Shown: positions 4,290 to 55,397 of the stretch, one piece after another | Position numbering within the stretch: position 1 is the stretch's first letter | Layout: the number at the start of each line of letters is the position of its first letter | Origin: Craterostigma plantagineum | Lineage: Eukaryota; Streptophyta; Magnoliopsida; Lamiales; Linderniaceae | Length of the DNA stretch: 64,000 bases | Assembly (NCBI GenBank): GCA_027422505.1 | Contig: JAPQWV010000330.1 | Span: 434,001 to 498,000, forward strand | Reading direction: 5' to 3' | Translations under genes and position numbers: made by a program | The notes under the pieces: model-generated | Told to the model about the DNA's origin: nothing | Databases searched by the model: none | What the model saw: only the letters and a program-made list of their open reading frames with translations

Positions 4290-4298
<9 letters not shown>

Positions 4299-9069: not shown

Positions 9070-9082
9070 TGGGTGACTATGA

Positions 9083-9128
<46 letters not shown>

Positions 9129-14592: not shown

Positions 14593-15135
14593 AGTTCTTG
14601 TTAGAAGAGTTAAAATGGAAGTCTTGTTGTGTACTGACATGGGGAAATTATATTTTTGCTAATCCGTATATATGTCTCCAAGGTTTTATCTGAGGTTTGC
14701 GTTGTGTAAGAGAATTTGTCTCCAAATTGCAGATGTAATTCATAATTTCTCGACTTCCTGAAGAAATGGTACGGGGTTATATTTTCTAAAAACTCGACGT
14801 TTTTAACACAAACAGCATTGAATGCTACTGTACTGTATAATCTACCGAGATTTGTGCTTTGCTACAATTATCAATAGCAAAAATAAATTATTTGATGCTT
14901 CTTCAAGCAGTAATAAGAAATGAAAAGAAAGGAAAAATTATTCCTTCCGCTCGATTCGCACAAAAGAAAAGTTAAGTAAAATGTTTCTTTAATCACAAAG
15001 AAAATACCCCAAATGAACAATTATAAATGTTAAACGGAAAGTCTTCTTCACAGTTCCTCTCCTGTAAACTCTACTTGAAAGGGTATAAAGCAGCAAAGCA
15101 GCTCTCAGTCTCTGATCTGAGTCGTCTTCTCAACA
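14593..15135. other. ELP6 3' flank and LTA4H promoter
   Basis: AT-rich spacer between two plus-strand genes. No ORF or RNA gene is seen. Confidence 0.6.
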
Positions 15136-25654: not shown

Positions 25655-27538
25655 ATGGAAGAGAGTGGAGAAGGCGGAGATCAGAATGATAGGTTCTTAC
25701 CATTTGTAAATGTTAAAAGGATAATGAAGAAGGGTTTGCCTGCGCATGCAAAGGTTTCCAAAGATGCTATAGAACTTGTTCAGGAATGTGTTTCCGAATT
25801 CATCTTCTTAATTACCGGCGAGTATGTTGAAAGATTTTACGTTTAGATGTAGAGCCAATAGCAGTACATTCTTGATTAATTCCTTCCTTTTTATGTTCTT
25901 CGTTGGATAGAGCAAGTGACAAGTGTATAAGGGAGAGTAGGAAGACCATTAACGGGGACGATTTGTTGTGGTCAATGCAAAGATGGGGATTTGTCGATTA
26001 CACCCCTGCCCTGAGGCTTTACTTGAAAAAGTACCGAGAGGTGATCTCCTTGGCTTTTTTGATTCGTTTTCTTCAGCTGTTTATTGCGCACCTATATATA
26101 TATAACGGAGAATAATAATCTTGTTGGTTCTTTTTGTTTGTGTTTTCGTTACATTGCTAGATCGAACAGACGTCAGAGGTACGCAGTTTCCCTCTGTTTT
26201 TCTCTCTAATTTGTGGCTCTAGAACGAACTTTCTGAGCCGTTAACTCTTATCAATCAGGGTGGCGGCAGCACCAGCGCTGGAGTGAAGCGCCCGCTTGGT
26301 TCACATGTGCAGGTTTTTAACCTTTTTTCTTAACTTTCTCGGTTGATCAATCTTGGATTGAAGTGTTTTTCTCCATTTCTTGATGGGTATTTTTCTTTTC
26401 TTTTCTTCCCTTCCCCTGCAGTTTGTTCCTCTTCAAGGATCTTCTTCACAAACAAAAGATATGGGCTTCGGGTCCAATTTCCCAGGTTCCCAAAACCCCA
26501 AACTGGTCAGCAGAGGCCTTCTTCTTCTTCACAAGTTACGGGTTTGGGGTTCCCTGGTTACAACGTCCAAATGCCCAAATTGGTCAAGTAGGACCACCAT
26601 CTTCTTCGCAAGCTTTCAACTATGGGTTTAATTTGCCCGGTTTCAACGTCCCAAATCCCCAAATTGGTCATCAGGTGGTGGAACCATCTTCGCAAGCTTT
26701 CAATTATGGGTCTAATTTGCCAGGTTTCAACGTCCCAAATCCCCAAATTGGTCAAGTGGGACCACCATCTTCTTCGCAAGCTTTCAGCTATGGGACCAAT
26801 TTGCCCGGTTTCAACGTCCCAAATGCCCAAATTGGTCATCAACTGGAACCATCTTCTTCGCAAGATTTCAACTATGGGTCTAATTTGCCAGGTTTCAACG
26901 TCCCAAATGCCCAAATTGGTCAAGTGGGAGCACCATCTTCTTCGCAAGCTTTCAACTTTGGGTCTAATTTGCCCGGTTTCAACGTCCCAAATGCCCAAAT
27001 TGGTCATCAGGTGGAACCATCTTCTTCGCAAGCTTTCAACTATGGGTCTAATTTGCCAGGTTTCAACGTCCCAAATGCCCAAATTGGTCAGGACCCTTAT
27101 TCGCAAGCTATGGGCTTCGGGTCAGATTTCCCAGGTTACGCCCCTTATGCTCAAGTTGGTCAAGGACCTCCTCCTTCTTCACAAGTTATGGGTTTAGGGC
27201 CAAATCTCCCAGGTTTCAGCGTCCCAAATGCTGCCCAAATTGGTCAGGTGAGACCTTCTTCTTCTTCTTCTTCGCAAGCTATAGACTTAGGGTCAAATTT
27301 CAGCGTCCCAAATGCTGCCCTAATTGGTCAGGTGAGACCTTCTTCTTCTTCGCAAGCTATGGACTTAGGGTCAAATTTCAGCGTCCCAAATGCTGCCCTA
27401 ATTGGTCAGGCGAGACCTTCTTCTTCTTCGCAAGCTATGGACTTAGGGTCAAATTTCAGCGTCCCAAACGCGCCTGGTCAGGTGGAACCTTCTTCGCCAA
27501 CAGATAGCAGCATCCATGCTTTTCTAAATGGTCCATAG
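25655..27538 (+). pseudogene. NF-YB: NF-YB copy 1, histone fold intact, repeat tail out of frame
   Basis: Exons 25655-25821, 25911-26040, 26161-26178 (18-nt microexon), 26259-26312 and a last exon from 26422. Exons 1-2 encode an NF-YB histone fold: [26 protein letters not shown], then RKTINGDDLLWSM. NF-YB pairs with NF-YC and NF-YA to bind CCAAT boxes. In the last exon the frame from exon 4 runs to a stop at 26631, a product of about 192 residues. Compared with copy 2, single bases are missing near 26495-26500 and near 26566, so the 300-codon repeat tail (open to 27538) lies in another frame. The gene is either a recent partial pseudogene, a truncated NF-YB, or affected by sequence error. Splicing that restores the frame cannot be excluded. 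Confidence 0.75.
26570..27470 (+). repeat. Coding minisatellite: 84-bp units (28 residues) in NF-YB copy 1 tail
   Basis: About six units of 84 bp, then shorter derivatives of about 78 bp. Each unit encodes PNAQIG, a linker, PSSSQAF, then [11 protein letters not shown]. Linkers alternate strictly between QVG-type and HQV/HQL-type, so the true period is a 168-bp dimer. The last units change to AMDLGSNFSVPNAALIGQ. The composition is rich in S, N, G, P, F and Q with almost no charge. Confidence 0.9.
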
Positions 27539-27779
27539 AATATTAGTTTTTACTTTGGTAATAGAATCTGTTGTTTTTACGAGTCTCTCCTCTCTTATTC
27601 AGTGAATAAATAAATAAAGATTCATTCTTTCATTAGTCGTTCGTTTTCATTCTTGACCGTTTTCGTAAGTGTACTTATCTTCATGCCACGTGTAGAGTAG
27701 ACAACTCAAACTGATCAAACCCCATAAGTACTCTCCGCACTCCATGGAAGTAGGGCTTCAATTAATTGTCCGACTTCAG
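27539..27779 (+). other. Shared 3' flank of the NF-YB copies
   Basis: The block at about 27598-27722 (AATAAATAAATAAAGATTC..., then GTTTTCATTCTTGACCGTTTT and GCCACGTGTAGAGTAGACAA) recurs at about 38655-38760 and 42823-42935. It marks the 3' boundary of the duplicated unit and includes likely poly(A) signals (AATAAA). Confidence 0.75.
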
Positions 27780-28231
27780 CAATGAATACGCTTGATCGAT
27801 CGATGAATCGAGTAGAAGGTTGAGTGATGTTCTTCAGTATTGAGCCTCAAATCAAATCTGCAGGAGAAAGTTAGTTAGAAATAGCTCCAACGTTGAGGTG
27901 AGTGGCAGCGACTTTCAAATTAAATTTGAGCAAGTGATTTTGGGAAGAGATAACTTGGATAAGAAAGACGATTTCGAGGTGACGATAATCACGTCTAGTC
28001 TATTTTTCCTGCATGTAAGTAGAAATATTTTTGGAAATATTTTCGTTTCGACTTTGAAATGATAGCTATCCTCTGTTTTCCTTAATTTTCTCACACACAC
28101 TTTCCTCACCAAACACAAATCTGTCAAACCTTATAAATAATGTTCTTAGACTCGTTGCTGATTTTGTATCGTCGCAGAAAAAGATATTGAAATCCTCCAT
28201 TGTTGAGTCCATTCCAATTGCTTCCTTATGA
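27780..28231 (+). pseudogene. Truncated copy of the aminotransferase-like gene (3' exons)
   Basis: Sequence matching intron 3 and exons 4, 6, 7 and 8 of the gene at 22.5-24.9 kb. The exon 4 remnant starts at 27864 after CTGCAG and has an early in-frame TAG. The exon 5 region is lost and exons 6 and 7 are fused. The last exon is well kept at 28177-28231, ending in the same way as the parent. It cannot make a working enzyme. Confidence 0.9.
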
Positions 28232-28295
28232 GCCATCGTCGTTTGGAACTTTACTGTTGTACCGAGTGAAAGGGTTTTCTTTTGTTTTTTAGATA

Positions 28296-28552
28296 GGCAA
28301 AATTATAACAATGGGTACCATATTTTTTTTTTTATTTTGGGTCACTATGTTTGCAATTACAAAACTAGGTCAGTATGTATATAGTAACAAAATTGGGTCA
28401 TTAAGTATGTATATAGTTACAAATTTGGGTCACTAAGTATGCACATAATAAGAAGAAAAAAAGAGGTCAGTGATCCAATTTTGTAAATGGCAAACATAGT
28501 GACCCAAAATCGAAAATTAGCATACTTATGTGATCCATTTTTATAATTTCCC
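28296..28552. mobile_element. Mutator-like MITE with 9-bp target duplication
   Basis: This 257-bp element starts GGCAAAATTATAACAATGG and ends CCATTTTTATAATTTCCC, with long imperfect inverted arms (the phrase GGGTCACTATGTTTGC recurs inverted). It is flanked by TTTTAGATA at 28287-28295 and 28553-28561. The 9-bp duplication is the Mutator hallmark. The parent locus at about 25010 has a single uninterrupted TTTTTAGATATTTAAG, the empty site. Confidence 0.85.
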
Positions 28553-28640
28553 TTTTAGATATTAAGAAACCTTATTTTTTTTCTTTTATTTAAGTATAAG
28601 TTTCATTTAGCTTTTTGGAAATAGTTGAAACTGTTTAAAC

Positions 28641-29194
28641 TGTTGACTTTTCAACGTGAGGTGGAGTGGAGAAAATCAAAATGCATTTTTCTTGTAATGA
28701 TGCATGCAATGACGATTGTGTGTTTGTTGTTTTGTGTATGAGCTTGCCTATAAAAAGACTTGCTCGATGTGTTGAAGAGCTCACCCCAAATTAGATAGAG
28801 AGAGAGACGCGAGTAAGAGAGAAAGGAGAGGTGAAAGAAAATGAGAGGAAAAAAGAAAAGAAAAAAAAGGAGGAAATCTTGTCCGGGTGGATAAGGGTGA
28901 GAGGGTATAGTTTTTACTAGGTAGTTGAGAGTGGGTACAAAAAACATTACCCGAGGGGTAAGGAGTCTCGAGTTTGGGTTTAAACACGAGCGTTATTTTG
29001 TACGGTGTAATATTCTCAAATATAGTAAAACTATTGTCTCTCCGTGGATGTAGGCGGTATTGGCCGAACCACGTAAAAATCTCGGTGTTCTTTCGGTGTC
29101 ATTTCGACTTTAATTAATATCCCGATGATTTGTCGCGGGGTCCAAATACAACTACCGCTGGCCCGGAATTAAATATTACCGCTCAACCCCAACA
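28641..29194 (+). repeat. Left LTR of copia element A
   Basis: 554 bp, TGTTGACTTTTC...CCCCAACA. It contains a GA-rich transcribed-looking section and a TATAAAAAG box near 28751. Confidence 0.9.
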
Positions 29195-30670
29195 AGTGGT
29201 ATCGGAGCCAAATCCTACTGGTATTCTGAGTATGCTCTGTGGTTGCAGCTGTGTCTGATCTTCCACATCAGAAAAGATATCAGAAGGGAACGTCGATCGG
29301 GGGGAGCCAGTGTCAGAGCGAGGTTCAACGAGGTGATGCCTTGTGTTGAGAAAATGATGGTACAGGATGGTTATCGTTGATGGTATGCTCGGTGTGGGAG
29401 GAGCTTGTGCGGCGGTGGAGTTTTGGCGAGTTATGGCAATAGACTGTGAGGCAGGTCGTTAGCCTTTCGTGGGAAATATCTGATCAGTACTATTTGGGCC
29501 GGGCTGTTAAATCTCTGCAAGGATAATAACGACGTATGACAGCAAATTGCGACAGTGTGCTGGTTCAGGAGGTTTCACTCTGCGGCAGAGAAGAGTGAAG
29601 GATGTGCTCGTTTGTCAAAGCTGGGTGATAAGCTTTGATGGGAGACGAGGAAAAGTCGGAGTAATGACGGAAGATTTGGGGTCATGATGTGTCGAAGAGG
29701 AAGAAGTGAGGCCCTGTTACTTCTTACCTCACTTCCTGATTCGGGTAATAATTTGATCACACCATCCGATACGAGACGGTAGATGGTGGAGTCAACTCTT
29801 TTGGAGCATGAAAAGATAAGGCGGTCAAATTATGGTGATAGCCGGACATTGGCTATTTTTCAGAGTGAATCATAGAGGAAGGTGATACGCCAGGGGATTT
29901 GGTGACAGCAGCAGGTCCAAATCCAGGTGGCGGGAAGGGCATGCGATGATACAAATGTGGTGAGCCGGGACACATCAGGAGAAATTGTCCGATCTTGGAG
30001 GAAGAAGGACAAGAGGCTAGGAAAATTCCACAACGGAGGTAGCACACGGTTTATCTTGGAGACATTCTCACAGTCTCTAATGATGGCGCTCGTTCTCAGG
30101 AAGAAGAATATATGATTCGGTATTGAAATGGTGAATATCAAAATGGTTGACGGAGCGGTATGCATTTTGGATGGTGTGACGTTGTCCCAAAGTTGCTAGA
30201 ATTTAATATTCTTGAGCCAGTCAGATTCCAGGGCTATGGGGTTTTCATAGCAGGGGGAGTCTGGAAAATCACACATGGCAGAATGGTCCTACCAAAGGGA
30301 GAAGAGTGCAACGGTTTGTATCGTCTGGACGTGAGTATGATATATAATACTCAGACTTCGATGGGTTCACGAAAATCGCGCGCGTGGTATAAAGACAAAT
30401 GATGGTGAGAAGGAAAGTCCTGCTGGGGAAGGGGTTGCATTGAAGTCTCTCTTCGGGAATCGATGGGTCGAGTCGGTTAAACATAGCTGCACATAAGATT
30501 GGTCGTTGAATGAATCAAATGGGGTAGGATCGGAATTCTTGATTCGGATTATGTGTAGGTGCTACAAGGAAGGCCAATGGATATTCGTGGTATTTACGAA
30601 CGGGTTACTCTCATTCTCGGGTTCGCTGGAGTGCTCTCTGAAGACACCGATGTTGAAAAGGGGGGAGAAT

Positions 30671-31223
30671 TGTTGACTTTTCAACGTGAGGTGGAGTGGA
30701 GAAAATCAAAATGCATTTTTCTTGTAATGATGCATGCAATGACGATTGTGTGTTTGTTGTTTTGTGTATGAGCTTGCCTATAAAAAGACTTGCTCGATGA
30801 GTTGAAGAGCTCACCCCAAATTAGATAGAGAGAGAGACGCGAGTAAGAGAGAAAGGAGAGGTGAAAGAAAATGAGAGGAAAAAAGAAAAGAAAAAAAGGA
30901 GGAAATCTTGTCCGGGTGGATAAGGGTGAGAGGGTATAGTTTTTACTAGGTAGTTGAGAGTGGGTACAAAAAACATTACCCGAGGGGTAAGGAGTCTCGA
31001 GTTTGGGTTTAAACACGAGCGTTATTTTGTACGGTGTAATATTCTCAAATATAGTAAAACTATTGTCTCTCCGTGGATGTAGGCGGTATTGGCCGAACCA
31101 CGTAAAAATCTCGGTGTTCTTTCGGTGTCATTTCGACTTTAATTAATATCCCGATGATTTGTCGCGGGGTCCAAATACAACTACCGCTTGCCCGGAATTA
31201 AATATTACCGCTCAATCCCAACA
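30671..31223 (+). repeat. Right LTR of copia element A
   Basis: 553 bp, differing from the left LTR by about four changes seen by eye, including one A in a poly(A) run. Confidence 0.9.
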
Positions 31224-31623
31224 TAAACAACATAATTTCATTTTTAACGAATAATTAATTAAGATTAATAATAATTATATATTATATTTCCAAATGCTTA
31301 ATGTAAAAAGATGCTTCGTTGCCATCGTAGCAAAGCATTTTAATTTCGTGTAACAACAATAAAACTATATATAAAAAATTACATAATTAAGGTACTCCTC
31401 AACATCATCTCTCAGCCGTCCGATGTTCTCATCAGCTAATCATCATCTCCTTTCCAACTGTACGCCAATTACAAATTCAAACCGCGTCAATCCCCAAACC
31501 TGCAATTTCACAAAGTATTCTACTGTTGATTTTTTCTTTTCCTCCCAACGTAGACGATTGTGATTCTTTTCCCTTTCCTTCGTAATTGGCTGATTATTTC
31601 TTTGTTTGTGGAGCTAGGTTTTG
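31224..31623 (+). promoter_or_regulatory. NF-YB copy 2 upstream region
   Basis: It continues the paralogous spacer seen before copy 1 (AATGCTTAATG..., AGCAAAGCATTTTAATTT) and the shared TCTCTCAGCCGTCCGATG block at about 31408. Element A interrupts the match just upstream. Confidence 0.6.
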
Positions 31624-34600
31624 ATGGCAGAGAGTGGCGAAGGAGGAGGTCAGAAGAAGGGCAGGTTGATACCCATGGAAAATATCAAACGGATAATGAG
31701 GAAGACGTTGCCTGCGCATGGAAAGATTTCCAGAGTTGCTATAGAACTTGTTCAGGAATGTCTTTCCGAATTCATCAGCTTCATAACCACCGAGTATGTT
31801 TAAAGCTTTTGTTTTTAATCAGTATAGCCGGTCAAGATGGTTAGGAGATGTATGTTGAATATTGGAGTGGGACAATGAATTATTATAACAAAAGTTCTTT
31901 TATTATTGAAGAGGGCCACACACTTATTATTAAATTCTACACCTCACGTATATTATTCAAAGCACTCACTCTCATAGACTTTATGACACTAGACAACAAC
32001 TCACACAACACAACCACATGCATATTACATATTTATAATGTTCTTATGTCGGTTTATCATCTCTAGATGATGCTACGTGTAGATATTACTTAGAATATCT
32101 ATTTTACAATGCAACATGTGGCTCTATACGTGGTTGATGACTCATGCTCTATTATGTCTGTTGCAATTATTAAGTCGGTTCATTTAAGTCGGTTCTAGAT
32201 GGTGGTGATGACTTTCTTCAATTCTCCCCTTCAGCACCGACATCCTCTCGTATAGTATTTTCTGTTTGAATCATTCCTAAGCGTGTACGAAATTCCTCGA
32301 ATTTTGAAACTGTAAGTCCTTTCGTGAATATGTCGGCTACTTGATTTTCTGTACCAATGTGTTTCAGCTCAATCTCCCCTTTGAGCACCTTTTCGCGTAC
32401 GAAGTGGTAGTGCACTTCAACATGTTTTGTCCTCGCATGACATACCGGATTCTCTGCTATGCGTATAGCAGATTGATTGTCGCAAAATATCTGTACCCCG
32501 TCGCTGATTGACTGATGTAAGTCGTTCAATAACTGCACAAGCCAAGTGCTTTCTTGAGCTGTCATTGCTGCTGCTCGATACTCAGCTTCGGCGGTAGATA
32601 AAGACACTGTCGGTTGTCTTTTACTACACCATGATACTGCAGCTGATCCTAACTTGAATACATACCCAGTAGTAGATCTTCTTGTATCACGACATCCAGC
32701 GTAGTCCGCATCGCAATAGCCAGTGATCTTGACATCTTTATTCTTTTCGTAAAGTATTCCATAATTAATTGTTCCTTTTACGTACCTCAGTATACGTCTG
32801 GCGAGCTCAAGATGTGGCTTCTTTGGCTTCTCCATAAATCGACTCGCGATCCCCACTGCGTATGAAATGTCTGGGCGAGTCAACGTCAAGTAAATTAGAC
32901 TCCCAACAAGCTGCCTGTACATAGTTGCATTCTCCAGGTCTTTGCCATCTTCCGCACATATCTTGGCGTTTGCTTCAATTGGGGTTGATATTGGCTTGCA
33001 GTCAATCATGCCGAATTTTCTGAGCAGATCTTTTGCATATTTTAACTGGTAAAGTAGTAATCCATCACCTCTCTCCTTTAACTCGAGCCCCAGAAAATGT
33101 TTAAGTTCTCCAAGTTCTTTCATTTGGAATCTCACCGATAAATTCCTCCTTGTTTGTCGAATTTCGTCTTCGTCGTCTCCAGAAATAATTATATCATCGA
33201 CATATACTAGCACTATTGCTAGTTTTCCTTTTGTTTCCTTGACGAAGAGGCTCGAGTCTGCTGGTGTCACTGAGTACCCGCATTGAACTAAGAATTCGGC
33301 GATCTTACCGTACCATGCTCGTGGTGCCTGTTTTAACCCGTATAAGGCTTTCTTTAATTTGCACACGTAGCTTGGATTTTCTTTATCTTCGAACCCTGCC
33401 GGTTGGATCATGTATATCTCTTTATCGAGTTCTCCATGTAGAAACGCGTTCTTTACGTCCATTTGCCATAACCTCCAGGACTTGCTCGCTGCTAGCGCGA
33501 TTAGTACTCGAACAGTTGTAATTTTTGCCACCGGACTAAATGTCTCATCATAGTCTATCCCATACTGTTGCGAAAATCCCGCGCTACTAGTCGAGCTTTA
33601 TATCTTTCAATTGATCCATCAGGTCGCCTTTTAATTTTATAAACCCACTTACAAGATATAGGTTTAACCCCATCTGGTTTAGGTACTAAATCCCATGTTT
33701 CATTTTGTTTTAAGGCCATAATTTCCTCGCTCATTGCTTTTCTCCATTCAGTATATTTAACTGCTTCCTCAAATATTTCTGATTCTTTGATATTTTCGTC
33801 TTCTTCTAAAGCTATATTGGCATACCTGGGATTTGGCCTTCTTTGTCTGGAGGATCTTCGTAGTTGTGTTGGGCTTGGTGATACTTCATCATGTTCCTCC
33901 CCTGTTGGCTCGGTCTCCTCAATCTGACTTGGCCTTGAAACTTCTGGAGTTGTTTGGTGCACACCCGTTCGCCAGGGACTTTGAGGTGTTCTCGGAGATT
34001 GTACGTCCTCTTCTGGCTCCTGCAATGTTGGATTTTCTTCCGGGAGTTTCACTATTTTCTCGAATTGTTCCTCAGTTTCTTTTGAATCGGGTAGCTCCGA
34101 TTTTTGTGGTGTCCACCAGGAGGATGCTTCGTCAAATACTACATGGCGAGATGTATAACACCGTCCAGTAGTTGGATCGCAACATCTCCACCCTTTCCTT
34201 TGGCTGTCGTACCCCACAAATATACACTTGATCGCCTTTCGATCAAATTTGGTTCGTAAATGACTTGGTACGAAAACATAACAGACGCATCCGAAAACTC
34301 TGAAGTGGCCAACAGTTGGTTTGATTTTCCACAGCTTCTCAAATGGTGATATGAATCCCAACTTTGCTTGTGGTAGCCTGTTTATTACGTGCGCTGCCGT
34401 CTTCATACATTCAGCCCAAAATCTTGGTGGTACATTCTTCGCATGTATCATGCTTCGACACGTTTCAGCCAAATGTCGATTTTTCCTCTCTGCCACACCA
34501 TTCTGCTGAGGTGTGTTTGGACACGTCAGCTGATGACGTATTTTATGCTCCTTCAGTAATTTGGAGAATTCCCTTGACGTGTATTCTCCCCCGTTATCCG

Positions 34601-37600
34601 TGCGAAGGCATCGGATCTTATCTCCGACTTCTCTTTCAACAATTTCTTTAAATTCCTTAAATTTCAAAATAACCTCTGATTTTTCTTTTATAAAAAAAAC
34701 CCAGACGTACCTTGAAAAGTCGTCAATGAATGTCACCATATAGCGCATACCACTGACTGAAGGTTGTTTGACTGGTCCGAACACATCAGAGTGGATTGTC
34801 TCCAAAGGTTTCTTTGCCCTGTAGCTCGAATCTTCGAACGGTAACTGATGTGCTTTTCCGTACTGACAACCAGCGCAGACTGTGTTATCCTTTATATCTA
34901 GTTGAGGAAGACCTTTCAACATTGATTTCTTCACCATCACTTTAAGCTTGTGATAACTCACATGTCCCAGCCTTGCATGCCACAACTCAGCTGTTTCATT
35001 CTTTCGAGCCTTATCTACGTAAGCTGACTCAGCCGACATTACATAGATAGACTCGAGTTTTCTACCCTCCATGATTGGTGTACCATTGATTTTAAGATTT
35101 CGATACACCGTAACGTTATCGGGTCCGAAAATAACATAGTTTCCCGAAGTCGTTAGTTGTGACACTGATATAAGATTTTTCTTCATACCTGGGACATGGT
35201 AAACGTCGTGTAGCTGCACTTGTCCAGGGCTGAATCTTGGGGTGATGCTCGTTTTGCCAATATGAGCTATTGGCAACCTTGAATTATTTGCAGTAACCAC
35301 CATTCGTCCTCCCTTATACTCAGTCGTGTTTTGCAGCTTCTCCTTGTCTCCCGTCATATGATTGGAGCAACCCGAGTCTACGATCCAATCATTTTCATAA
35401 TTTATTTTTCCAGGGATGATGACGGCCAATGCCGATGATTCCTCCTTTACATCTTCGATTATTGCAGTAGATGCCTCTACGTCCCACTCATCCTCGCTGT
35501 TCTTAGTCTCGTGACTTTTTAAAATTACTGTATTACCCTCAGCGGTCTTTTTCCTATGCCAACAATCTCTAGCAAAGTGATTTGGTTTACCGCAAACGTA
35601 GCATGGACCTTTTTTAATTCCTTTGAGCTTCTGATTTTTGTTATAACGACCTTGCTGGAACCCCCTTGTTTCAGAGCTTATTTCTTCCTTTTTAATACAC
35701 TCTTTCTTATCTCGCCTGTTTTGTTGGTGAGGTCTCCCCTTAATTTTATAACTTAATAAAACTTCATCATCTTTCTTTAATGAGACCTCCGCCATTTGTC
35801 TGGTCAGCACTTCCTGGTCAGCTAAAATATTTTCAAGATTGACCAAGGAAGGCTGCTCTTTCCAACCTTGTATAGCGGCTATAATTCCTCTAAATTCAGG
35901 TCTTAGACCGTGAATAATAATTCTTCTTGTTTTAGCATCTGAAACTTTATCAGTCGGGTCCAATTCAGATATTTCACGACAAAGGGAACGTACCTTATTA
36001 AAATACTCGCGTATCGTCATCTCCCCTTGTCTGATTGACAGAAGCTCATTTTCGAGAAGTTGCAGCTTGAATTCATTTTTCTTCGAAAATAATGCCGCCA
36101 GTGTGTCCCAAGCTTCTTTTGGAGTGCTTGCATCTCGTATGTGTTCCAGCAACTCTTTGCTGATAGTCGTCTTGAGTGCGTACATGGCCTTTCCCGCTTT
36201 AATTTTCCATTTCCGTAAGGCTCCAGCTTCTTGTGGTTGTGCGACCTCGTCTCCGCCGACTACCTCCCATATATCTTGTCCTTGAAGATATGACTCCATA
36301 CAGGTCTGCCACGTTGTGTAATTTTGATTGGTGAGTTTCTCCATTCCGCCTACTGACTGTAGGTCCGCCATCGTGACTTGGATTACCTCCTCGTAACCAA
36401 GCAAGCCTCACGCGCTTCACAATATTTAATTATTTATTTTTATTGTGCACGATGTCTCCGACTCAAACTTCCTTTATCGGTGACAACAGATGAACCCGCA
36501 GTATTTCCGCTGTCACTCAAACTTTCCAACGTGGCTGACGTTTATCTGGCGTGACTCCGGCGTGGCTCTGTCGTGGCTCTGACGTGGCTCTGATACCACT
36601 TGTTGAATATTGGAGTGGGACAATGAATTATTATAACAAAAGTTCTTTTATTATTGAAGAGGGCCACACACTTATTATTAAATTCTACACCTCACGTATA
36701 TTATTCAAAGCACTCACTCTCATAGACTTTATGACACTAGACAACAACTCACACAACACAACCACATGCATATTACATATTTATAATGTTCTTATGTCGG
36801 TTTATCATCTCTAGATGATGCTACGTGTAGATATTACTTAGAATATCTATTTTACAATGCAACATGTGGCTCTATACGTGGTTGATGACTCATGCTCTAT
36901 TATGTCTGTTGCAATTATTAAGTCGGTTCATTTAAGTCGGTTCTAGATGGTGGTGATGACTTTCTTCAATGTAAAGCCAATAGCAGTGCATTATTGATTT
37001 AATACCTCTTTTCTCTTTTTTGTCTTCTTTGGATAGAGCAAGTGACAAGAGCGAAAGGGAGAAAAGGACGACCATTAATGCGGACGATTTGTTGTGGGCA
37101 ATGGAAAACTTGGAACTTCACGACTACATCCCTCCCCTGAGGCTTTACTTGGAAAAGGTCCGAGAGGTAATTAGTAGTTTCTCTCCGTCCTTTCTTATTC
37201 ATTATGCCGATATACGTTTCTTCAGCTGTTTATTGCCCACCTGTAATAATCTTGTTTATTCCTTTTGTTTGTGTTTTCATTACATTACTGGTTCAAACAG
37301 TCGTCAGAGGTACGCAGTTTCCCTCTGTTTTTCTCTAATTTGTGACTTTAGAATGAACTTTCTGAGCCTTAAAGTGTTATCTTCAGAGTGGCGGCAGCAC
37401 CAGTGGTGGACGTGGTTCACATGAGCAGGTAACCTTTTTTTTTCTTTAGTTTTGTCGATTGATCAAATCTTGGGTTTAAGTGTTCTCTTCTCTATTTCTC
37501 TTTTCTTTGTTTTTTCCTTCCCCTGCAGTTCGCTCCTCTTCAAGGATTTTCTTCACAAGCTATGGGCTTTGATTCTAATTTCCCAGGTCTCCAAAACCCC

Positions 37601-38464
37601 CAAGTTGGTCAGCAGGGGCCTTCTTCTTCTTCACTAGTTACGAGTTTCGGATCTAATTTCCCAGGTTACAACGTCCCAAATGCCCAACTTGGTCAAGTGG
37701 GACCACCATCTTCTTCGCAAGCTTTCAACTATGGATCTAATTTGCCAGGTTTCAACGTCTCAAATGCCCAAATTGGTCAGGGACCTTATTCACAAGCTAT
37801 GGGATTTGGGTCTAATTTGCCCGGTTTCAACGTCCCAAATCCCCGAATTGGTCATCAGGTGGAACCATCTTCTTCGCAAGCTTTCGACTATGGGTCTGAT
37901 TTACCAGGTTTCAACGTTCCAAATTTCCAAATTGGTCAGGGACCTTATTCACCAGCTATGGTCTTCGGGTCAAATTTCCCAGGTTACGCCCCTTATGCTC
38001 AAGTTGGTCAAGGACCTTCTTCTTCTTCTTCTTCACAAGCTATGGGTTTAGGGCCAAATCTCCCAGGTTTCAGCGTCCCAAATGCCGCCCGAATTGGTCA
38101 GGTGGGACCTTTTTTTTCTTCTTCACAAGCTATGATGGACTTAGGGCCAAATTTCAGCGTCCCAAACGCCGACCAAATTGGTCAGTTGGGAACTTCTTCT
38201 TCACAAGATAACAGCTTGGGGTCTTTTTTACCAGGCGTTCATCAAAACTCCCAAATTGGTCAGGTGGGACTTTCTTCTTCTTCTTCTTCTACACAAGCTA
38301 TGGAGTTGGGGTCAAATTTCAACGTCCCAAACGCAGCACAAATTTGTCAGCTACCTTCTACACCACAAGATAGCCTCCAAGTTTTTTTAGAAGGTGTCTT
38401 TGTCGACGAAGAGCCCGAAGTTGATCGATCAACAGGGCTCACCCAATCGTCAACAACGCCATGA
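31624..38464 (+). CDS. NF-YB: NF-YB copy 2 with long repeat tail; copia inserted in intron 1
   Basis: Exons 31624-31793, 37037-37166, 37301-37309 (9-nt microexon), 37387-37428 and 37529-38464 join in frame to about 428 residues. Intron 1 is 5.2 kb because a copia element sits in it, antisense. The histone fold is recognisable ([41 protein letters not shown]) but changed at usual NF-YB positions: LIPMENI where LPIANV is typical, and SRVAIE where SKDAKE is typical. The last exon encodes a 311-residue uncharged tail of [20 protein letters not shown] units, ending with an acidic [10 protein letters not shown]. If spliced, it would be an NF-Y subunit with a disordered tail more than twice the size of its core. 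Expression is unproven. Confidence 0.75.
31853..32220 (-). repeat. 3' LTR of the intronic copia (left in window)
   Basis: 368 bp, TGTTGAATATTGG...TTTCTTCA. The stop codon of the RNase H reading frame overlaps its border (32218-32220). Confidence 0.95.
32218..33531 (-). CDS. Copia reverse transcriptase-RNase H (polyprotein, part 2)
   Basis: This continues the polyprotein in another frame after the single-base lesion. The RT core is visible in [26 protein letters not shown] and [11 protein letters not shown], where YVDD is the catalytic box. RNase H follows, with [18 protein letters not shown] and FCDNQSAI, then [13 protein letters not shown]. The stop lies at the LTR border. The frame is otherwise open, which agrees with a young element. 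Confidence 0.95.
33555..36371 (-). CDS. Copia gag-protease-integrase and start of RT (frameshifted polyprotein, part 1)
   Basis: The likely start is the ATG at 36371 (MADLQSVGG...); the open frame extends slightly upstream. The N-terminal part is the copia gag domain. A zinc knuckle ([14 protein letters not shown]) lies near residue 260. The protease active site is in [12 protein letters not shown], and the GAG-pre-integrase motif is [12 protein letters not shown]. Integrase residues are visible in [16 protein letters not shown] and [14 protein letters not shown] begins at [12 protein letters not shown]. The frame ends after the 'LVAR' block because of a one-base loss near 33588. These proteins copy and insert the element; this copy could not make full RT without frameshifting. 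Confidence 0.95.
36601..36968 (-). repeat. 5' LTR of the intronic copia (right in window)
   Basis: 368 bp; no difference from the other LTR was seen by eye, which implies a recent insertion. Confidence 0.95.
37560..38350 (+). repeat. Coding repeats in NF-YB copy 2 tail
   Basis: About ten units related to the 84-bp units of copy 1 but more degenerate in length (about 60-84 bp). Recurrent pieces are [25 protein letters not shown] and SSSSQAM. All stay in frame. The HQV-type linker appears only once here, so the strict dimer pattern is special to copy 1. Confidence 0.85.
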
Positions 38465-38465
38465 G

Positions 38466-38503
<38 letters not shown>

Positions 38504-38996
38504 CTGATGATGATGATGAGGGGGGAGGAGATCTTTCTTCACAAGATTTCGGCTACCCCAAACCCAAAGTGAATATTAGTTGTTACTTAGGTAATAGATC
38601 TTTTGTTTTCTCTTAGGTCTCCCTACTCTGTCGAGGATAATGAGTCTTGTTTCAGTGAATAGATAAACAAAGATTCATTCTTTCATTAGTCGGTCGTTTT
38701 CATTCTTGACTGTTTTCATAAGTGTACTTATCTCCGTTCCACGTGTAGAGTGGACAACCCAAACTCAAACCCCATTATCGCTGCATTTGACTGTTAGAAA
38801 AATCATGAAATAGAAGAGCAAGGTTGTCCTAGACTACGACAAAGACTACTACAAAAATCTCTGAATAAATATAGAGATGGTCAGAAAGAATATAAAGATA
38901 TATTGGACTATATTGATCCGAGTCAAAGGGAAGCATTGCATATGTACTATGATGCGTTTGAGATGTATTTGTTATTTTTTCATAGTAAGCTCCTAG
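38465..38996 (+). other. NF-YB copy 2 3' flank with (GAT)n tract
   Basis: A GAT microsatellite spans about 38465-38518 directly after the stop. The shared 3' block follows at about 38655-38760. The stretch 38780-38945 (ATCATGAAATAGAAGA..., AAAATCTCTGAATAA) recurs at about 42975-43115 after copy 3. Confidence 0.7.
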
Positions 38997-40921
38997 TGAT
39001 AAAAGAGAAAGATTTGTATTTTATATCTTATTCTGTTACAGTCGAAGATGACCTCATTATATAGCAGATGATTTCTAAACTAGCCATTGAGACACAATCA
39101 TTTTAATTTAGCTAATCATATTTTTCTTTAATTGTATAATCTTTGACTTGATTTCTGATTTTGTGCCTTGATCGGTTGAGTCTTTTCTTCAATCTTCAAC
39201 ACTCCCCCTCAAGTTGGTTTCTTTATATTTATAGGACCCAACTTGATTAAAAACCTTTCAAATATTTGTCGATCAATTGCCTTTGTAAATATATCTGCTA
39301 GCTGATTTTGGCTTTTGAGAATGGGGTCTCGATTTCATTAGCTTGTACTTTTTCATGAACGAAATGACAATTCACTTCAATGTGTGTTTGTCATCTCGTG
39401 GAACACAGGGTTAGATGCTATGTGTCTCGTTGCGTTATTGTCGCAAACAATTGCATCGGTTCTTTGCATTCTATCTTCACGTCTTGTAGTAGTTGTTTTA
39501 TCCATATTAGCTCGCATGTTGTTAAAATCATAGCCCAATATTCTGCTTCAGCAATTGTTCATGTTACGACTTTCTGTGTCGCATTCTGTCCTGGGTTCTC
39601 GAGGAAATGGAGACACGGGGGGCTTTTTGTGGCTTTTTGCTTTGAACCATGGTTTGATTAGGGATGGCAGTGGGGCGGGGATTCCCCGTCCCCGCGGGGA
39701 TCCGCCCCGAAAGGGGCGGGGAATCCCCGAGTTTTTATCCCCGCGGGGCGGGGACGGGGACTGATTTTTCCCCGCGGGGATCCCCGCCCCGTTCCCCGCC
39801 CCGCCCCGAACCTATATTATATATTAAAATATATATAATTTTAGATTATAATTTAAATAATAATAAAATAATATCAAAAATTAGATTAAATAATATTAAA
39901 ATAATACAAATAATATTTAAAAATTATAATTTATACAATATTTATAACAAAAAATATCCAAATTTATATATTATGTTAAAAACATTATATTTTAAAAAAA
40001 AATATGAATCCCCGCGGGGAATCCCCGCCCCGCGGGGATCCGGCGGGGACGGGGACAGTTTTGTCCCCGAATGCATCGCGGGGACGGGGACGGGGATTGG
40101 ATCCCCGCCCCGAATAGGGATGGCAGTGGGGCGGGGATTCCCCGTCCCCGCGGGGATCCGCCCCGAAAGGGGCGGGGAATCCCCGAGTTTTTATCCCCGC
40201 GGGGCGGGGACGGGGACTGATTTTTCCCCGCGGGGATCCCCGCCCCGTTCCCCGCCCCGCCCCGAACCTATATTATATATTAAAATATATATACTTTTTA
40301 ATTATAATTTGATAAATAATAAAATAATATCAAAATATAGATTAAATAACATTAAAATAATACAAATAAGATTTAAAAATTATAATTTATATAATATTTA
40401 TAACAAAAAATATCCAAATTTATATATTATATTAAAAATATTATATTTTAAAAAAATATGAATCCCCGTGGGGAATCCCCGCCCCGCGGGGATCCGGCGG
40501 GGATGGGGACGGGGACAGTTCTGTCCCGGATGCATCGCGGGGACGGGGACGGGGATTGGATCCCCGCCCCGAACCCGCCCCGTTGACAACCCTAGCCCCG
40601 AACCCGCCCCGTTGACAACCCTAGGTTTGATTTCTTACATGGTTTTTGAGAGCTTCTGTAAATGAGTTTTTTTTTTTTTTTTGCAATGGTCGAGACTCGA
40701 GATCTCTTTTTTTTGTAAAAGAGAAAGATTTATATTTCATATCTTATTCTATTGCAACCGAGGATGACCTCATTATATAGCAGATATTTTTTAAACTAGC
40801 CGTTGACACACAATCATTTTAATTTAGCTAATCATATCTTTTCTTTAATTGTATGATCTTTGACTTAGATTTCTGATTTTGCGCCATAGGTCAGTGTAGT
40901 CTTTTTCTTCAATATTCAATA
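38997..40921 (-). mobile_element. Relic copia element with nested hAT MITE
   Basis: Two LTR-like copies at about 38997-39201 and 40714-40921 share ...AAAAGAGAAAGATTT..., GATGACCTCATTATATAGCAG and AATTTAGCTAATCATA. Beside the left one is ACTCCCCCTCAAGTTGG, a purine tract on the minus strand. Bases 39250-39560 read, on the minus strand and with frame breaks, as the end of a copia RNase H (ASNPVFHE... followed by an HIEVNCHF-like stretch). Most of the interior is deleted. The LTR borders are approximate, and no target duplication was found. Confidence 0.7.
39659..40623. mobile_element. hAT-type MITE with palindromic GC arms, internally duplicated
   Basis: The 965-bp insert is flanked by a perfect 8-bp duplication GGTTTGAT (39651-39658, 40624-40631). 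It starts TAGGGATGGCAG and ends GACAACCCTA. Its unit is a GC arm packed with CCCCGCGGGG palindromes, an AT-only core of about 200 bp, and a second GC arm. The unit occurs twice (from 39659 and from about 40115), and the right tip (CGAACCCGCCCCGTTGACAA) is also doubled. It carries no transposase. The frame through it is an artefact of the repeats. Confidence 0.85.
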
Positions 40922-41498
40922 TATTCTTTTGAACCCTATTATGCTTCTGATTCTGAGTTGTGTCTTTCTTTTGGAGTTTGGGTTCTTATTGCGCACGATA
41001 TTTTTAACAAATGATTACTTAAAAAGGATAATTTAACACTGTGGATTACCAAATGCTTTGTTGCAAGCAAACCCCTCCCTAGCAAAGAATTTTAATTTTG
41101 AGTAACAACAAAAACTATATTAATATAATGTGTATACTATAGGTATAGAAATAATATTGTCCTCCAACAAAACATCATCTCTCAGCCGTTCGATCTTCTG
41201 ATACCTCTCTTAGCCGATCTTCTCCAACTGTCCGCGCTCTTGCCAGCTATAAATTCAAGGTTTAGCTCTATTCAAACTCCAAGCTCTTAAAAACTACTAT
41301 ACCTTCCCTGCCTGCGTTTTCTCTTCTTGATTAGTTTCTTGACGTCGATCAGTCTCCAAACTTGTAATTTCACGCACTACTTATACGTACAATCCTCTTT
41401 TCTTTATGTTTCCCACATTATGGACGATTGAATTTGATTTTCTTATCCCTATCCTTTCTATTGATTGATTATTTTTTGTTTGGTGGAGCTAGGTTTTG
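40922..41498 (+). other. Aminotransferase intron scrap and NF-YB copy 3 promoter
   Basis: The stretch 40930-41000 (GCTTCTGATTCTGAG..., TTTGGAGTTTGGGTTCTTATT) matches intron 3 of the aminotransferase-like gene at about 23685-23745, so the same duplication unit preceded this copy. The shared CATCATCTCTCAGCCGTTCG block follows at about 41171. Confidence 0.65.
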
Positions 41499-42667
41499 AT
41501 GGCAGACAGTGGTGAAGGGGGAGAACAGAGGCCATCTTCGTCCAACGTCAGTAACAAGGATCGGTTGTTACCCATTGCAAATGTTGATCAGATAATGAGG
41601 AAGATAATGCCTGGGCATGGAAAGATTGCCAAAGATGCTAAAGAACTTGTTCAGGAATGTGCTTCAGAATTCATCAGCTTCATAACTAGCGAGTATGTTG
41701 AAAGATTTATGTTTTTTTAAATCATTATAGCCAGTCCAGTCAAGATGGTTAGAACGAAGATGTAAAGCCAATAGCAGCAGTGCATTCTTGATTAATTCCT
41801 CCCCTTTTTTTTTGGTCTTCTTTGGATGCAGAGCAAATGAAAAGTGCGAAAGGGAGAAAAGGAAGACCATTAAAGGGGAAGATGTGTTGTGGGCAATGGA
41901 AAACTTGGGTTTCGACAACTACGTCGCTCCCCTGAGTGTTTACTTGAAAAAGGTGGTAGTAGTTTCTCTCTGTATTCTTCAGCTGTTTATTTCCGCCCAC
42001 CTATGTATGGAGAATAATAATCTTGTTTATTTCTTTTTCTTGCGTTGTTAGTGGATGGACCAGCAGTCAGATGTAGGCAGTTTCCCTCTCTCTCTCTCTC
42101 TCTCTTTTTTTTTTTTTTTTTCTCTCTATAATTTGAGACTTTCGAACGAAATTTCTGAGGCGTAAACTGCTATGTTCCTCCCATGAGAAGGTAAGCCGCT
42201 TAGTTGGAGTAATACAGAAGACGCCGCTTAGTTCCCATGAGCAGGTAAGCCTTTTTTTTTTTTCTTAATTTTCTCGGTTCCATCAAATCTTGGATTGGAG
42301 GAAGTGTTTTTCTCTCTATTTCTTGATTTGGGTTTTCTTTTCATTCGTTTTTGATATCTCCCCCCCTGCCCTACAGTTTGTTGATCCTCTTCAGGGATCT
42401 TCTTCTTCGCAAGATAACAGCTTGGGGTCTCTTTTACCAGGCGTTCATCAAAACGCTCAAATTAGTCAAGTGGAACCTTCTTCTTCACAAGCTATGGACT
42501 TATTAGGGTCAAGTTTCAGCGTCCCAATTGATCAGCAGCTACAACCTTCTTCTTCTTCTTCTTCAGCAGATAGCCTCCAACTTCTTGTAGATAGTTTCTT
42601 TGTCGACGAAGAGCCCGAAATCCATCAGCAGGGCTACTCTCCCAAGCGTCAAAAACGCCAAGAGTGA
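41499..42667 (+). CDS. NF-YB: NF-YB copy 3, short tail
   Basis: Exons 41499-41692, 41832-41952, probable 42052-42072 (21-nt microexon), 42218-42244 and 42377-42667, giving about 217 residues. The core is closest to canonical [58 protein letters not shown]. It lacks the Asp that marks LEC1-type NF-YB at the position after 'KIA'. Exon 2 ends at YLKK, three residues earlier than in the other copies. The tail is only about 96 residues, without [11 protein letters not shown] arrays, and ends with FFVDEEPE and a basic KRQKRQE. It probably resembles the ancestral form. The third and fourth exons are the least certain. Confidence 0.75.
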
Positions 42668-49851: not shown

Positions 49852-51621
49852 TTAAGTTCCGCTGTACGGCATTGGGTTGGGCATGCCCTTGACGATCCCA
49901 CAGAGAGGCTGAGAGTCGAACATATTGTACTCATCACGGAGAGAACGCGCCGGAGATAGGACGCTGACGTAGAGCTGCTGCCCTAAGTACTGATTCTCAA
50001 GCACCATCGATCTCAAGCTCCACATTCCGGCGTTGTCCAAGGTTGTCATGACGGCGGCCCAGCTCCTGGGATACACCTGCACCGTGTGCCTGCTAACGGC
50101 GTCGATCAAGTTGTAGTTCTGCCTCTTCGCCGGCGTCCACGTCCCTGGCTCGATCCTGTCGTAGGAGAAACTCCATTGACGACGTTGTAAGAGAGAAAAA
50201 ATAGACGGCGGCGATAAATTAATTAATCATGGATGGAATATGGTCCCTTACGCGACTGGGAAGAAAGCGTAGCCGTCCAAGTGGTAAGACTGGACGGAGT
50301 CGGTGGGGTTTTCAAAGACGATCTCCACAAACTCTCTGAAGTTTCCGGCGATGACATTGGGAGCCACGGCGAGCGGCCTGCGCAGGTCCCTAGCCGTGGG
50401 CTGGTCCTTGATGACGTTGTACTTGAAAACCCTATCTGCGACGCCGAAGTACTCGGCGAGCTTCACTGGGGTTTCCGGGTCGACGTGCGACAGCCCATTT
50501 ATGCCGTACCTGAGCTTTCCGGCGACCGGCGCCGACGTGCCCACGACCTTAATCGTGCGGGCGATGGTGATTTTCCCGTAGTGGTACGAGCCTTGTGGGT
50601 TGGGTCTGGCCGCGCTCGCCGTGAGGTTCCAGTGCAGGGAACGGAACTGGCTGAGCGAAAACGCCACGTCGGTCGGCGCCGGTGGTATCACCGGCGAGGC
50701 CGGACCGACCCCGCCGACGTAACCCACGACCGCCGTCGCGGTGTACTCAGGGGAGACGAACCTCGTCGAGGCCACCAAAAGGTAGTCCTTGGGCGCCTGG
50801 TCGGCGGTGACGAGGACGGAATAGCACTGTCCAAGGTGGACGTCGAGCGATTCGTAGACGTTCTGCACCGTGTGCGAGCCCTCGGTTTCGACGAGCTTCA
50901 TGGTGTGCCCTTGCAGGCGAACGTTGACCGAGTTCTTCATGCCCACGTTGCAGAACCTGTAGCGATACGTCTTGCCGGCGACCATTCTGTAGATGGGTCC
51001 GCCGTCGGAGGCCTTCTTCCCGTTAATAATAACTCCGTCGGGGTTTCCAATCCCAAACCCGCCGTCAAGCATGGCCCTGAGCTCGCCGTGGTCCTTAGCA
51101 TACCAATCTCCGACGAGCACCTCAAATTCGCCCTCAGGCCTGTCAAACGGCACGGGGATGAGGTCGCGGCTGTGCACCGTGATGGGGCCATAGCCACCGG
51201 CGGCGCGGTGGAGGGCGGTGGTGGGGTAGTAGTAAAAGGAGCCGATTTGGTCCTTCACCTGAAAACGGTAGGTGTAGTTGCCGCCGGGGGGAATGGGGCA
51301 GGTGGTTCCTAATGTTCCTTCCTGCCAAGAATTCTTCCTCTGCTGTATTCCGTGCCATGTGAAGAGCAGAGGTTCGTCGAGGTTGTTGATGACGTTGACC
51401 ACCACGTTGTTGTTCGACGTGCCGTTGATCCTTGGGCCGGGAAATTGACCGTTGATGGTGATGACCCTCTGTGGGACCCCCAAAGGGGCTAGGGTTGAGT
51501 AGGCGACGTTCCACGTGTAGAACAAGTATGGATCTTCGCAGCTGACGAGGCATGACGATGATGATAGGAGAAGAACGAGCAGTGAAAAGAAAAGGCCCTT
51601 CTTCATCGCCATGCCGCCCAT
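49852..51621 (-). CDS. SKU5-similar / Bp10-type multicopper-oxidase-like protein
   Basis: Two exons, 51621-50252 and 50155-49852, joined within an Ala codon, giving 557 residues. A hydrophobic signal peptide (FFSLLVLLLSSSSCLVSCE) leads into three cupredoxin domains: LYTWNVAYST-like start, VINNLDEPLLFTWHGI, RAAGGYGPITVHSR, ETPVKLAEYFGV, QSYHLDGYAFF, then SRHTVQVYPRSWAA and DNAGMWSLRS. It is secreted to the cell wall. As in SKS proteins, most copper ligands are missing: the HXH of the second motif is replaced by GSFYYYP, and no Cys stands in DNAGMW. Oxidase activity is therefore doubtful. It resembles pollen-expressed Bp10/NTP303 proteins. No GPI-signal tail is seen. Confidence 0.92.
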
Positions 51622-54436: not shown

Positions 54437-55051
54437 ATGGCCTCTTCAACCTCGCCGTGCGCCGCCTGCAAATTCCTCCGGCGAAAGTGCCAGCCCGAGT
54501 GCGTCTTCGCACCGTACTTCCCACCTGACCAACCCCAGAAATTCGCCAACGTCCACAAAGTCTTCGGCGCCAGCAACGTCACAAAGCTCCTCAACGAACT
54601 CCAGCCCCACCAGCGCGAGGACGCCGTCAACTCCCTCGCCTACGAGGCCGACATGCGCCTGAGGGACCCAGTCTACGGCTGCGTCGGCGTCATCTCCCTC
54701 CTTCAGCACCAGCTAAGGCAGCTTCAGATAGACCTCAGCTGCGCCAAGTCTGAGCTCTCAAAGTACCAGAACAGCACCACCGCCGCCCACTTTTACCACC
54801 ATCAGTTCTTCCCCCACCACCACCACCACGTCGTGGCGGCGAGCCACCAGCAGCAGGCGGTGAGGTCCGCCTTTGACGGGCTTAATAATAACAGTAGTAA
54901 CGGCGGCGGTGGTAATAATATCAGCGGTTACGATCACCACGTCGGCGGTGGTGGTGCAGGTGGGCTTCTCGCCGTGAACCATGTCTCGGCTCAGCTCGGC
55001 GGGTTTCAGCACGCTTCTAGGGCGACGGCCGATCATGGGCGTCCAACTTGA
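54437..55051 (+). CDS. AS2: ASYMMETRIC LEAVES 2 (LOB-domain transcription factor, LBD6)
   Basis: A single coding exon of 204 residues. The LOB domain starts near the N-terminus: the zinc C-block CX2CX6CX3C (CAACKFLRRKCQPEC), the GAS block with FAPYFPPDQPQKFANVHKVF, and the leucine-zipper-like end (VISLLQHQLRQLQIDLSCAK). The match to AS2 is nearly exact through this domain. The C-terminal half is lineage-specific and rich in H, G and N. AS2 with the MYB protein AS1 represses class I KNOX genes and promotes adaxial leaf fate in the nucleus. A copia-derived element lies 350 bp past the stop. Confidence 0.95.
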   Translation: MASSTSPCAACKFLRRKCQPECVFAPYFPPDQPQKFANVHKVFGASNVTKLLNELQPHQREDAVNSLAYEADMRLRDPVYGCVGVISLLQHQLRQLQIDLSCAKSELSKYQNSTTAAHFYHHQFFPHHHHHVVAASHQQQAVRSAFDGLNNNSSNGGGGNNISGYDHHVGGGGAGGLLAVNHVSAQLGGFQHASRATADHGRPT

Positions 55052-55397
55052 ATTTGATGCGTCGTCGCCGGTTATTATTATACTATGTTTGAATATCGTT
55101 TTTTTTTTTCATTTTGATTTTGTGTTTGCTGTCTATCGCTAACGCTAAACAAAGCCAATCAGTTATTGCGTATGATTTGGGGCTCTCCCTCTCTCTCTCT
55201 TTATATATAGTTGATTGGTTAGGGTTTAGTGCTAATTAATTACATAGTTGAGTTTTATGGATTACGTACGGTGTAATGAAATGATCGGAACTTAAAAATG
55301 TATGTGTGTGCGAGTGTTGTGTGAACACTTTATTGTATTTGTTGATCATTCCTCTTTTTTTTTTTTTTTTTAAACCGAATTTTCTTTAAGTGATTTT

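Follow-up and report, generated by a model that had tools for sequence, protein, structure and literature searches.

Three tandem NF-YB genes of Craterostigma plantagineum and a repeat-built, very probably translated tail

A stretch of 64,000 nucleotides from Craterostigma plantagineum (contig JAPQWV010000330.1, here C330, positions 434001-498000, taken from a 1.71-Gb assembly of 6262 contigs; hereafter the window) carries plant genes, among them three adjacent genes in tandem at window positions 25655-42667, all on the plus strand and each with a histone fold of the NF-YB type. Members of this family dimerise with NF-YC through the NF-YB fold, and CCAAT is recognised by the dimer together with NF-YA. 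Taken as a whole, the results are best explained, with a probability of roughly 0.55, by a last exon that has grown by repetition in copies 1 and 2 of the cluster, is translated in most alleles and forms a flexible arm on the NF-YB/NF-YC dimer. Because insertions and deletions (indels) that break the frame are rarer between alleles in the last exon than in the introns and flanks, exon 5 very probably is, or until very recently was, translated together with the fold.

An assembly-wide search with the histone-fold core of copy 3 found a homologous cluster on four other contigs (C165, C36, C12 and C7), and 15 cores, i.e., three copies in each of five clusters, were read. The cluster copies on the five contigs are called alleles here; they may be haplotypes, homeologs or partly duplicate contigs. 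C330 and C165 differ at 1.66% of the aligned bases (matches longer than 300 bp only), and because of this difference their versions look like two real alleles.

The gene cluster and the reading frame of its tail

An earlier note, made from the letters of the window, had described three adjacent genes with an NF-YB histone fold, the first two fused to a long tail and the third with a short one. All three genes were recovered by tblastn within the window, with scores for PF00808 (CBFD_NFYB_HMF) above the cut-off, and the tail of copy 3 is indeed short, its last exon having 96 residues. Fusion to the long tail holds for copy 2, which is an open gene of 428 residues in the window, 311 of them repeat tail. 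It does not hold for copy 1 in the window, where the frame is broken, though copy 1 is open in four of the five alleles. The modelled exons, with the evidence for each, are as follows.

25655-25821, plus strand: copy 1 exon 1, start of the NF-YB histone fold (PF00808, 76 bits for the core; GT donor phase as in copy 2)
25911-26040, plus strand: copy 1 exon 2, remainder of the histone fold (tblastn within the window and gene model)
26170-26178, plus strand: copy 1 micro-exon 3, 9 nt, phase 0 (splice sites in all five alleles)
26259-26312, plus strand: copy 1 exon 4, linker (gene model)
26422-27538, plus strand: copy 1 exon 5, array of 28-residue repeats (frame broken in the window; open in C165, C12, C36 and C7)
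31624-31793, plus strand: copy 2 exon 1 (tblastn within the window and gene model)
37037-37166, plus strand: copy 2 exon 2, remainder of the histone fold (tblastn within the window and gene model)
37301-37309, plus strand: copy 2 micro-exon 3 (absent in C12 and C36)
37387-37428, plus strand: copy 2 exon 4 (largely lost in C7)
37529-38464, plus strand: copy 2 exon 5, repeat tail of 311 residues and stop (acidic block near the tail end)
41499-41692, plus strand: copy 3 exon 1 (PF00808, 89.4 bits for the core)
41832-41952, plus strand: copy 3 exon 2 (gene model)
42377-42667, plus strand: copy 3 last exon, 96 residues (acidic C-terminal block in common with copy 2)

In copies 1 and 2, every intron of the model is GT-AG, with phase 2 for the first and phase 0 for the others. 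For copy 3, of which exons 1 and 2 and the last exon were modelled, splicing of exon 2 straight to the last exon would preserve the frame. The transcript model of copy 1 in the window exits the repeat frame within exon 5 and ends at 189 residues; this exon shows two one-base losses relative to the C165 allele, and an assembly error is a possible cause of the break.

The array of copy 1 is built of an 84-bp unit with a higher-order unit of 168 bp (92% matches, 26556-27090), followed by a second part with a 78-bp unit (94%, 27214-27468), and that of copy 2 of 84- and 75-bp units (76% and 73%, 37625-37985). The claim of the earlier note that the tail is a nearly uncharged tandem repeat was confirmed by these arrays and by the composition of the 311-residue tail of copy 2, which contains only 3 lysine plus arginine and 15 aspartate plus glutamate residues, together with 18% glutamine plus asparagine, 13% glycine, 16% serine, 11% proline and 9.6% phenylalanine, tyrosine and tryptophan; all long last exons examined have only 3-6 lysine or arginine residues. 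Splitting of the arrays gave 47 pieces of 24-31 residues, and a unit consensus was derived from the 32 pieces that have exactly 28. Among the 22 distinct 28-residue units, which were picked by pattern, an aromatic residue occupies positions 16 and 18 in every case and position 25 in 21. These positions were dropped as a stand-alone sign of selection, as their codons hardly vary and the units were pattern-picked. An acidic-hydrophobic block at the C-terminus, DSLQ......FVDEEPE, is common to copies 2 and 3 and missing from the C36 allele of copy 2; it may be an activation motif. The long tail as such is probably a disordered arm.

The frame of copy 1 runs open to the end of the tail in the C165, C12, C36 and C7 alleles, with 465, 412, 298 and 412 residues, and that of copy 2 in the window, C165, C36 and C7 alleles, with 428, 427, 346 and 409 residues (in C7 only when exon 4 is skipped); the C12 allele of copy 2 has a late frameshift. 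Exon 5 itself encodes 345 (C165), 292 (C12), 177 (C36) and 292 (C7) residues in copy 1 and 311 (window), 310 (C165), 306 (C7) and 227 (C36) residues in copy 2, so that the recent growth that had been proposed for the tail is seen as a length polymorphism between alleles. The last exon of copy 3 was modelled in four of the five alleles and lies farther downstream in C36. An open frame was rejected as proof of coding. Two further frames of the copy 1 array, one forward (201 amino acids) and one reverse (187), are likewise open, and an 84-bp unit readily yields lengths divisible by three.

Indels were therefore compared between alleles. All allele pairs were counted, broken alleles included, and the pairs reuse alleles and are not independent. 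For copies 1, 2 and 3, respectively, the indels with a length divisible by three stood to the others as 54:12, 47:10 and 20:2 in the last exon (four alleles for copy 3) and as 6:0, 0:0 and 3:0 in the core exons (14 of the 15 alleles, i.e., without copy 3 of C36). The corresponding ratios were 0:14, 2:7 and 4:13 in intron 1, 10:46, 15:50 and 5:23 in introns 2-4, and 18:26, 15:35 and 18:32 in the 3' flank. Expressed per aligned kb, frame-breaking indels amounted to 1.63, 1.27 and 1.19 in the last exon of copies 1-3 versus 7.88-16.23 in the introns and flanks, a rate about 5-14 times lower. When disjoint pairs of open alleles were used, the contrast was 15:0 against 7:15 in copy 1 (p = 2.1e-5) and 8:1 against 4:12 in copy 2 (p = 0.0036), and it did not hold in copy 3 (4:2 against 8:14, p = 0.35); this version drops the two broken alleles, a choice that favours the coding reading. 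With indels between alleles keeping the frame, the long repeat-built tail is very probably coding, as had been supposed.

Relatives of the genes and origin of the tail

With a cut-off of 21.4 bits for PF00808, the core of copy 1 scored 76 bits, the whole of copy 2 71.7 and the core of copy 3 89.4; exon 2 of copy 2 by itself fell below it at 14.2 bits. Among the chains of the Protein Data Bank, the core of copy 3 matched NF-YB-3, -6 and -2 at E values of 5.6e-37 to 9.8e-36 and NC2 beta at 4.8e-17, and the core of copy 2 matched NF-YB-3 at 5.5e-33 and NC2 beta at 7.1e-08. By these scores NF-YB, and not NC2 beta, CHRAC-14 or another histone-fold subunit, is the nearest to the cores of copies 2 and 3. 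NC2 beta (Dr1) has an NF-YB-like histone fold, and its chain 1jfi_B was matched by the cores, but it scored far under the NF-YB chains for copies 2 and 3. NC2 beta is also said to have a Q-rich C-terminal region.

In the phylogenetic tree the five cores of each copy formed one clade (supports 96/92, 100/99 and 97/98), and the three copies are therefore older than the split of the alleles; copies 1 and 2 paired weakly. The ratio of nonsynonymous to synonymous substitution rates (dN/dS) in the core was 0.15-0.51 for copy 2 (nine of ten pairs; dS was 0 in the tenth), 0-0.73 for copy 3 and 0.24-2.59 for copy 1. Positive selection on the copy 1 core, where C330 and C165 compared with C12 and C36 gave 1.27-2.59, is not claimed, the counts being small and non-independent. 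Judged by their sequences, the cluster genes are diverged members of NF-YB (HAP3/CBF-A) and not typical ones, as part of the near-invariant residues are changed. Most likely they are three tandem, fast-diverging paralogs of plant NF-YB of class I (NF-YB1/8/10). The class names follow a passage of a published review, in which NF-YB1/8/10 form class I and NF-YB2 belongs to class II (PMC11719662).

A gene structure as expected of class I, though perhaps not of class I alone, was found in the cluster, with an intron inside the fold, a small middle exon and a last exon in phase 0. The introns inside the fold lie at the same residue in the cluster and in the ordinary NF-YB paralogs of this genome, and the small middle exon was seen by eye in one ordinary locus (C53). 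Five of the eight ordinary loci displayed have the last exon FVHQGSFSQGFSYPNSQIEY* after a phase-0 acceptor, and the other three split the tail differently. Similarly, exon 5 of the cluster opens with FVPLQGSSSQ or a similar sequence after a phase-0 acceptor, so that the likeness to class I extends from the histone fold and its intron to a phase-0 last exon opening with FV..QG.S..Q; moreover, the repeat unit resembles the class I tail block PNAQLAHQGSFSQGMNYGNSQ. The difference lies in length. Copies 1 and 2 have a last exon of 177-345 residues; that of one group of the ordinary paralogs in C. plantagineum has 20. In 118 ordinary proteins, the median length of everything that follows the core is 58 residues.

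The unit consensus was also compared with the tails of 118 of 123 NF-YB proteins (five were skipped). For 26 of the 118 less than 1% of 300 shuffles scored as high, which was the case for 2 of the 118 reversed and none of the 118 shuffled tails; P0089, which is among the 15 best tails, is unlike an ordinary NF-YB tail. Likeness to the ordinary tails of the same genome (11 and 252 of 1000 shuffles as high, both tails joined by hand) is weaker than that to tails of other plants (0, 0, 0 and 7 of 1000 for Ribes, Bertholletia, Davidia and Diospyros). Ribes rubrum was also the best match, among the 123 proteins, to two of four ordinary NF-YB loci of C. plantagineum. From these comparisons it is likely that the tail grew from the last exon or tail block of an ordinary NF-YB by in-frame tandem duplication; this is likely and not proven, because the match to the own tails is weaker and the match at the DNA level, given below, is borderline.

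When the copy 2 tail was used as a genome-wide query, 30 matches were obtained, 24 in the five clusters and six short ones elsewhere. Three of the latter were read (L038, L039 and L040, on contigs C10, C17 and C31) and are dispersed fragments resembling the last exon of copy 3, with 85-89% identity over 46 residues. No histone-fold core was found within the 2-2.5 kb of sequence taken for each. They were considered as processed copies that could prove splicing, and this was rejected, for they retain intron-like sequence before the exon.

The earlier note knew of no NF-YB with such a tail, and the searches agree in that the collection searched yielded no protein that carries it. With the whole of copy 2 as query, no protein among 6269 candidates reached an E value of 0.001 or less. 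Ordinary NF-YB proteins were not returned either, and as those of 236-247 residues in the collection were missed, this query has low sensitivity to the fold. The query with copy 3 gave 2321 matches, and among the 120 listed the identity was at most 69% and the query cover at most 83%. The core of copy 2, compared with proteins of about 235-749 residues (56 candidates), gave three matches, all with other tails. In the open-access literature searched, no publication was found that describes such an NF-YB tail, including an NF-YB minisatellite or a C-terminal repeat expansion; two papers that came up for the latter were, by their entries, judged unrelated. According to a passage of a survey of 320 plants, NF-YB proteins have a mean length of 190.3 residues (PMC12936444).

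The idea that an NF-YB may condense has precedents; what is new is the tail. One study reports that Arabidopsis NF-YB2 makes droplets in vitro, and that deletion or lengthening of the polyQ of NF-YC9 altered CO/NF-Y condensates and flowering (PMC11696179). These proteins resemble the cluster as NF-Y subunits with disordered arms (disorder being predicted in the cluster), and they differ in that NF-YB2 belongs to class II, that NF-YC9 has a polyQ of 6-7 residues versus an array of 28-residue units in the cluster NF-YB, and that the longer and the shorter polyQ acted alike. The predicted rice prionome includes transcription factors of the NF-YB family (PMC8350573). These are likewise predicted prion-like NF-YB proteins; the difference is that this is prediction only, and no tail repeat is named in the part of the source concerned. 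In a passage of the review cited above it is stated that the N- and C-termini of NF-YB may alter what the subunit can rescue (PMC11719662).

Proposed function and rival explanations

That the tail proteins are expressed, bind NF-YC, are disordered in the cell, and activate or condense is only inferred. The histone fold of copies 1 and 2 would bind NF-YC, and the tail would be a flexible disordered arm on the resulting NF-YB/NF-YC dimer. Regularly spaced phenylalanine or tyrosine residues, together with many glutamine, asparagine and serine residues, could give this arm weak multivalent contacts, and the arm of copy 2 would end in an acidic, activation-like stretch. In this way copies 1 and 2 may shift the recruitment or clustering of coactivators in comparison with ordinary NF-YB. 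By analogy with the NF-Y precedents, condensation driven by the tail is plausible. It is doubtful whether repeat number is a selected, length-polymorphic tuner of NF-Y clustering or activation at CCAAT promoters, with last exons of about 180-345 residues made of repeats of the ancestral NF-YB tail motif.

Several results weigh against the explanation by a translated, functional arm. Frameshifts are present in two of the ten long-tail alleles (copy 1 of the window and copy 2 of C12). The dN/dS of the tail is 0.25-0.92 in copy 1 and 0.55-1.00 in copy 2, so that constraint on its amino acids is weak, and dN/dS was discarded as proof of tail function. Out of 69 near-invariant core positions, 18-22 are changed in copies 1 and 2 and 14-18 in copy 3 (15 alleles), a difference from class I. 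The reference of 121 proteins had a median of 0 changes, a 90th percentile of 1 and a maximum of 21, and consists nearly entirely of best matches of the copy 3 search, so that it leans to class I. Because 14-22 of these positions are changed, ordinary binding to NF-YC, NF-YA or DNA is not to be assumed. In the tree the cluster sits on long branches and is drawn outside class I, with weak deep forks. As for the origin of the tail, at the 5% level the unit test was passed by 18 of 118 reversed tails, besides 61 of 118 real and 2 of 118 shuffled ones. Compared at the DNA level with the ordinary exon, exon 5 gave a borderline match in three models, where 2 to 9 of 443-460 control windows reached as high a score; for copy 2 of the window the match lacked significance (34 of 437 and 50 of 433 controls as high). 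The structure model of the tail, with a mean predicted local distance difference test score (pLDDT) of 46.7, was made from one sequence and is hardly evidence for disorder.

The main rival is near-neutral growth of the tail in relaxing paralogs, which is a serious possibility. According to this explanation the genes are translated now or were until recently, the tail is near-neutral filler lengthened and shortened by replication slippage and unequal crossing-over, the cluster is heading to loss, and the frame is kept chiefly because the 84-, 78- and 75-bp units and TCT slippage come in threes. It would account for the two frameshifted long-tail alleles, for the many copy 2 pairs in which the tail has a dN/dS close to 1 and for the many changed near-invariant sites of the fold, and the loss of exon 3 or 4 in three of the five copy 2 alleles and the two insertions in the cluster of the window are also in its favour. 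However, slippage in threes alone is insufficient for a rate of frame-breaking indels of 1.19-1.63 per kb in the last exon against 7.88-16.23 in the introns and flanks. Moreover, all indels in the core exons of the 14 alleles counted keep the frame, and the core dN/dS of 0.15-0.51 in copy 2 and 0-0.73 in copy 3 also speaks against such relaxation.

The many changed core positions of copies 1 and 2 (18-22 of 69) would also suit dominant-negative NF-YB proteins, with diverged folds that could bind NF-YC and not NF-YA or DNA, and a long tail that would block or sequester the dimer; as read from the sequence, this is unlikely. It is highly improbable that the array is a non-coding minisatellite, a repeat frame that is open by chance beside NF-YB fragments and is not part of a protein. 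Several frames of the array are open and the frame of copy 1 is broken in the window, as would be expected of such a minisatellite, but the indel spectra, the splice sites and phases common across alleles, and the joined open frames in 8 of 10 alleles (one with exon 4 skipped) are in conflict with it.

If the arm is what it appears to be, the cluster would show a conserved transcription-factor subunit apparently caught in the act of growing a long disordered arm out of repeats of its short tail motif. A natural allelic series of tail lengths is present in one genome together with near-isogenic controls, i.e., copy 3, the ordinary paralogs and the frameshifted alleles, and the effect of arm length on NF-Y is therefore directly testable. 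Even if the tail is neutral, it would still be a clean case of a minisatellite growing in frame within a transcription-factor gene.

Insertions and neighbouring features

Two insertions bounded by long terminal repeats (LTRs) are located within the cluster of the window.

28638-31223, strand not assigned: LTR-bounded insertion between copies 1 and 2 (557-bp ends, 99.1% alike)
31853-36968, minus strand: copia LTR retrotransposon in copy 2 intron 1 (LTRs 31853-32220 and 36601-36968, 368 bp, identical; 5-bp target duplication ATGTA)

The copia element is young. Intron 1 of copy 2, which contains it, is 5.2 kb long in the window versus 123-142 bp in the four other alleles. The distance between the starts of copies 1 and 2 is 2.7 kb shorter in C165 than in the window, and the alignment of C330 with C165 (matches longer than 300 bp only) has gaps over both insertions. 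A relative of the element at 28638-31223 is found in the same window at 55394-57903, 24 kb off and in the opposite orientation.

At 39656-40573 a stretch of about 460 bp is duplicated in tandem (94% alike), which yields an open frame of 267 residues, parts of which are rich in proline, arginine and glycine; this frame had no Pfam match at an E value of 0.001. Elsewhere in the window the following features were observed.

4294-4381, minus strand: MIR160 microRNA precursor (62.1 bits, gathering score 48)
7806-9216, minus strand: patatin-like phospholipase (two overlapping open frames, one below the Pfam cut-off)
15121-16152, plus strand: M1 peptidase gene
50251-51867, minus strand: multicopper oxidase gene
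54398-55048, plus strand: LOB-domain protein gene

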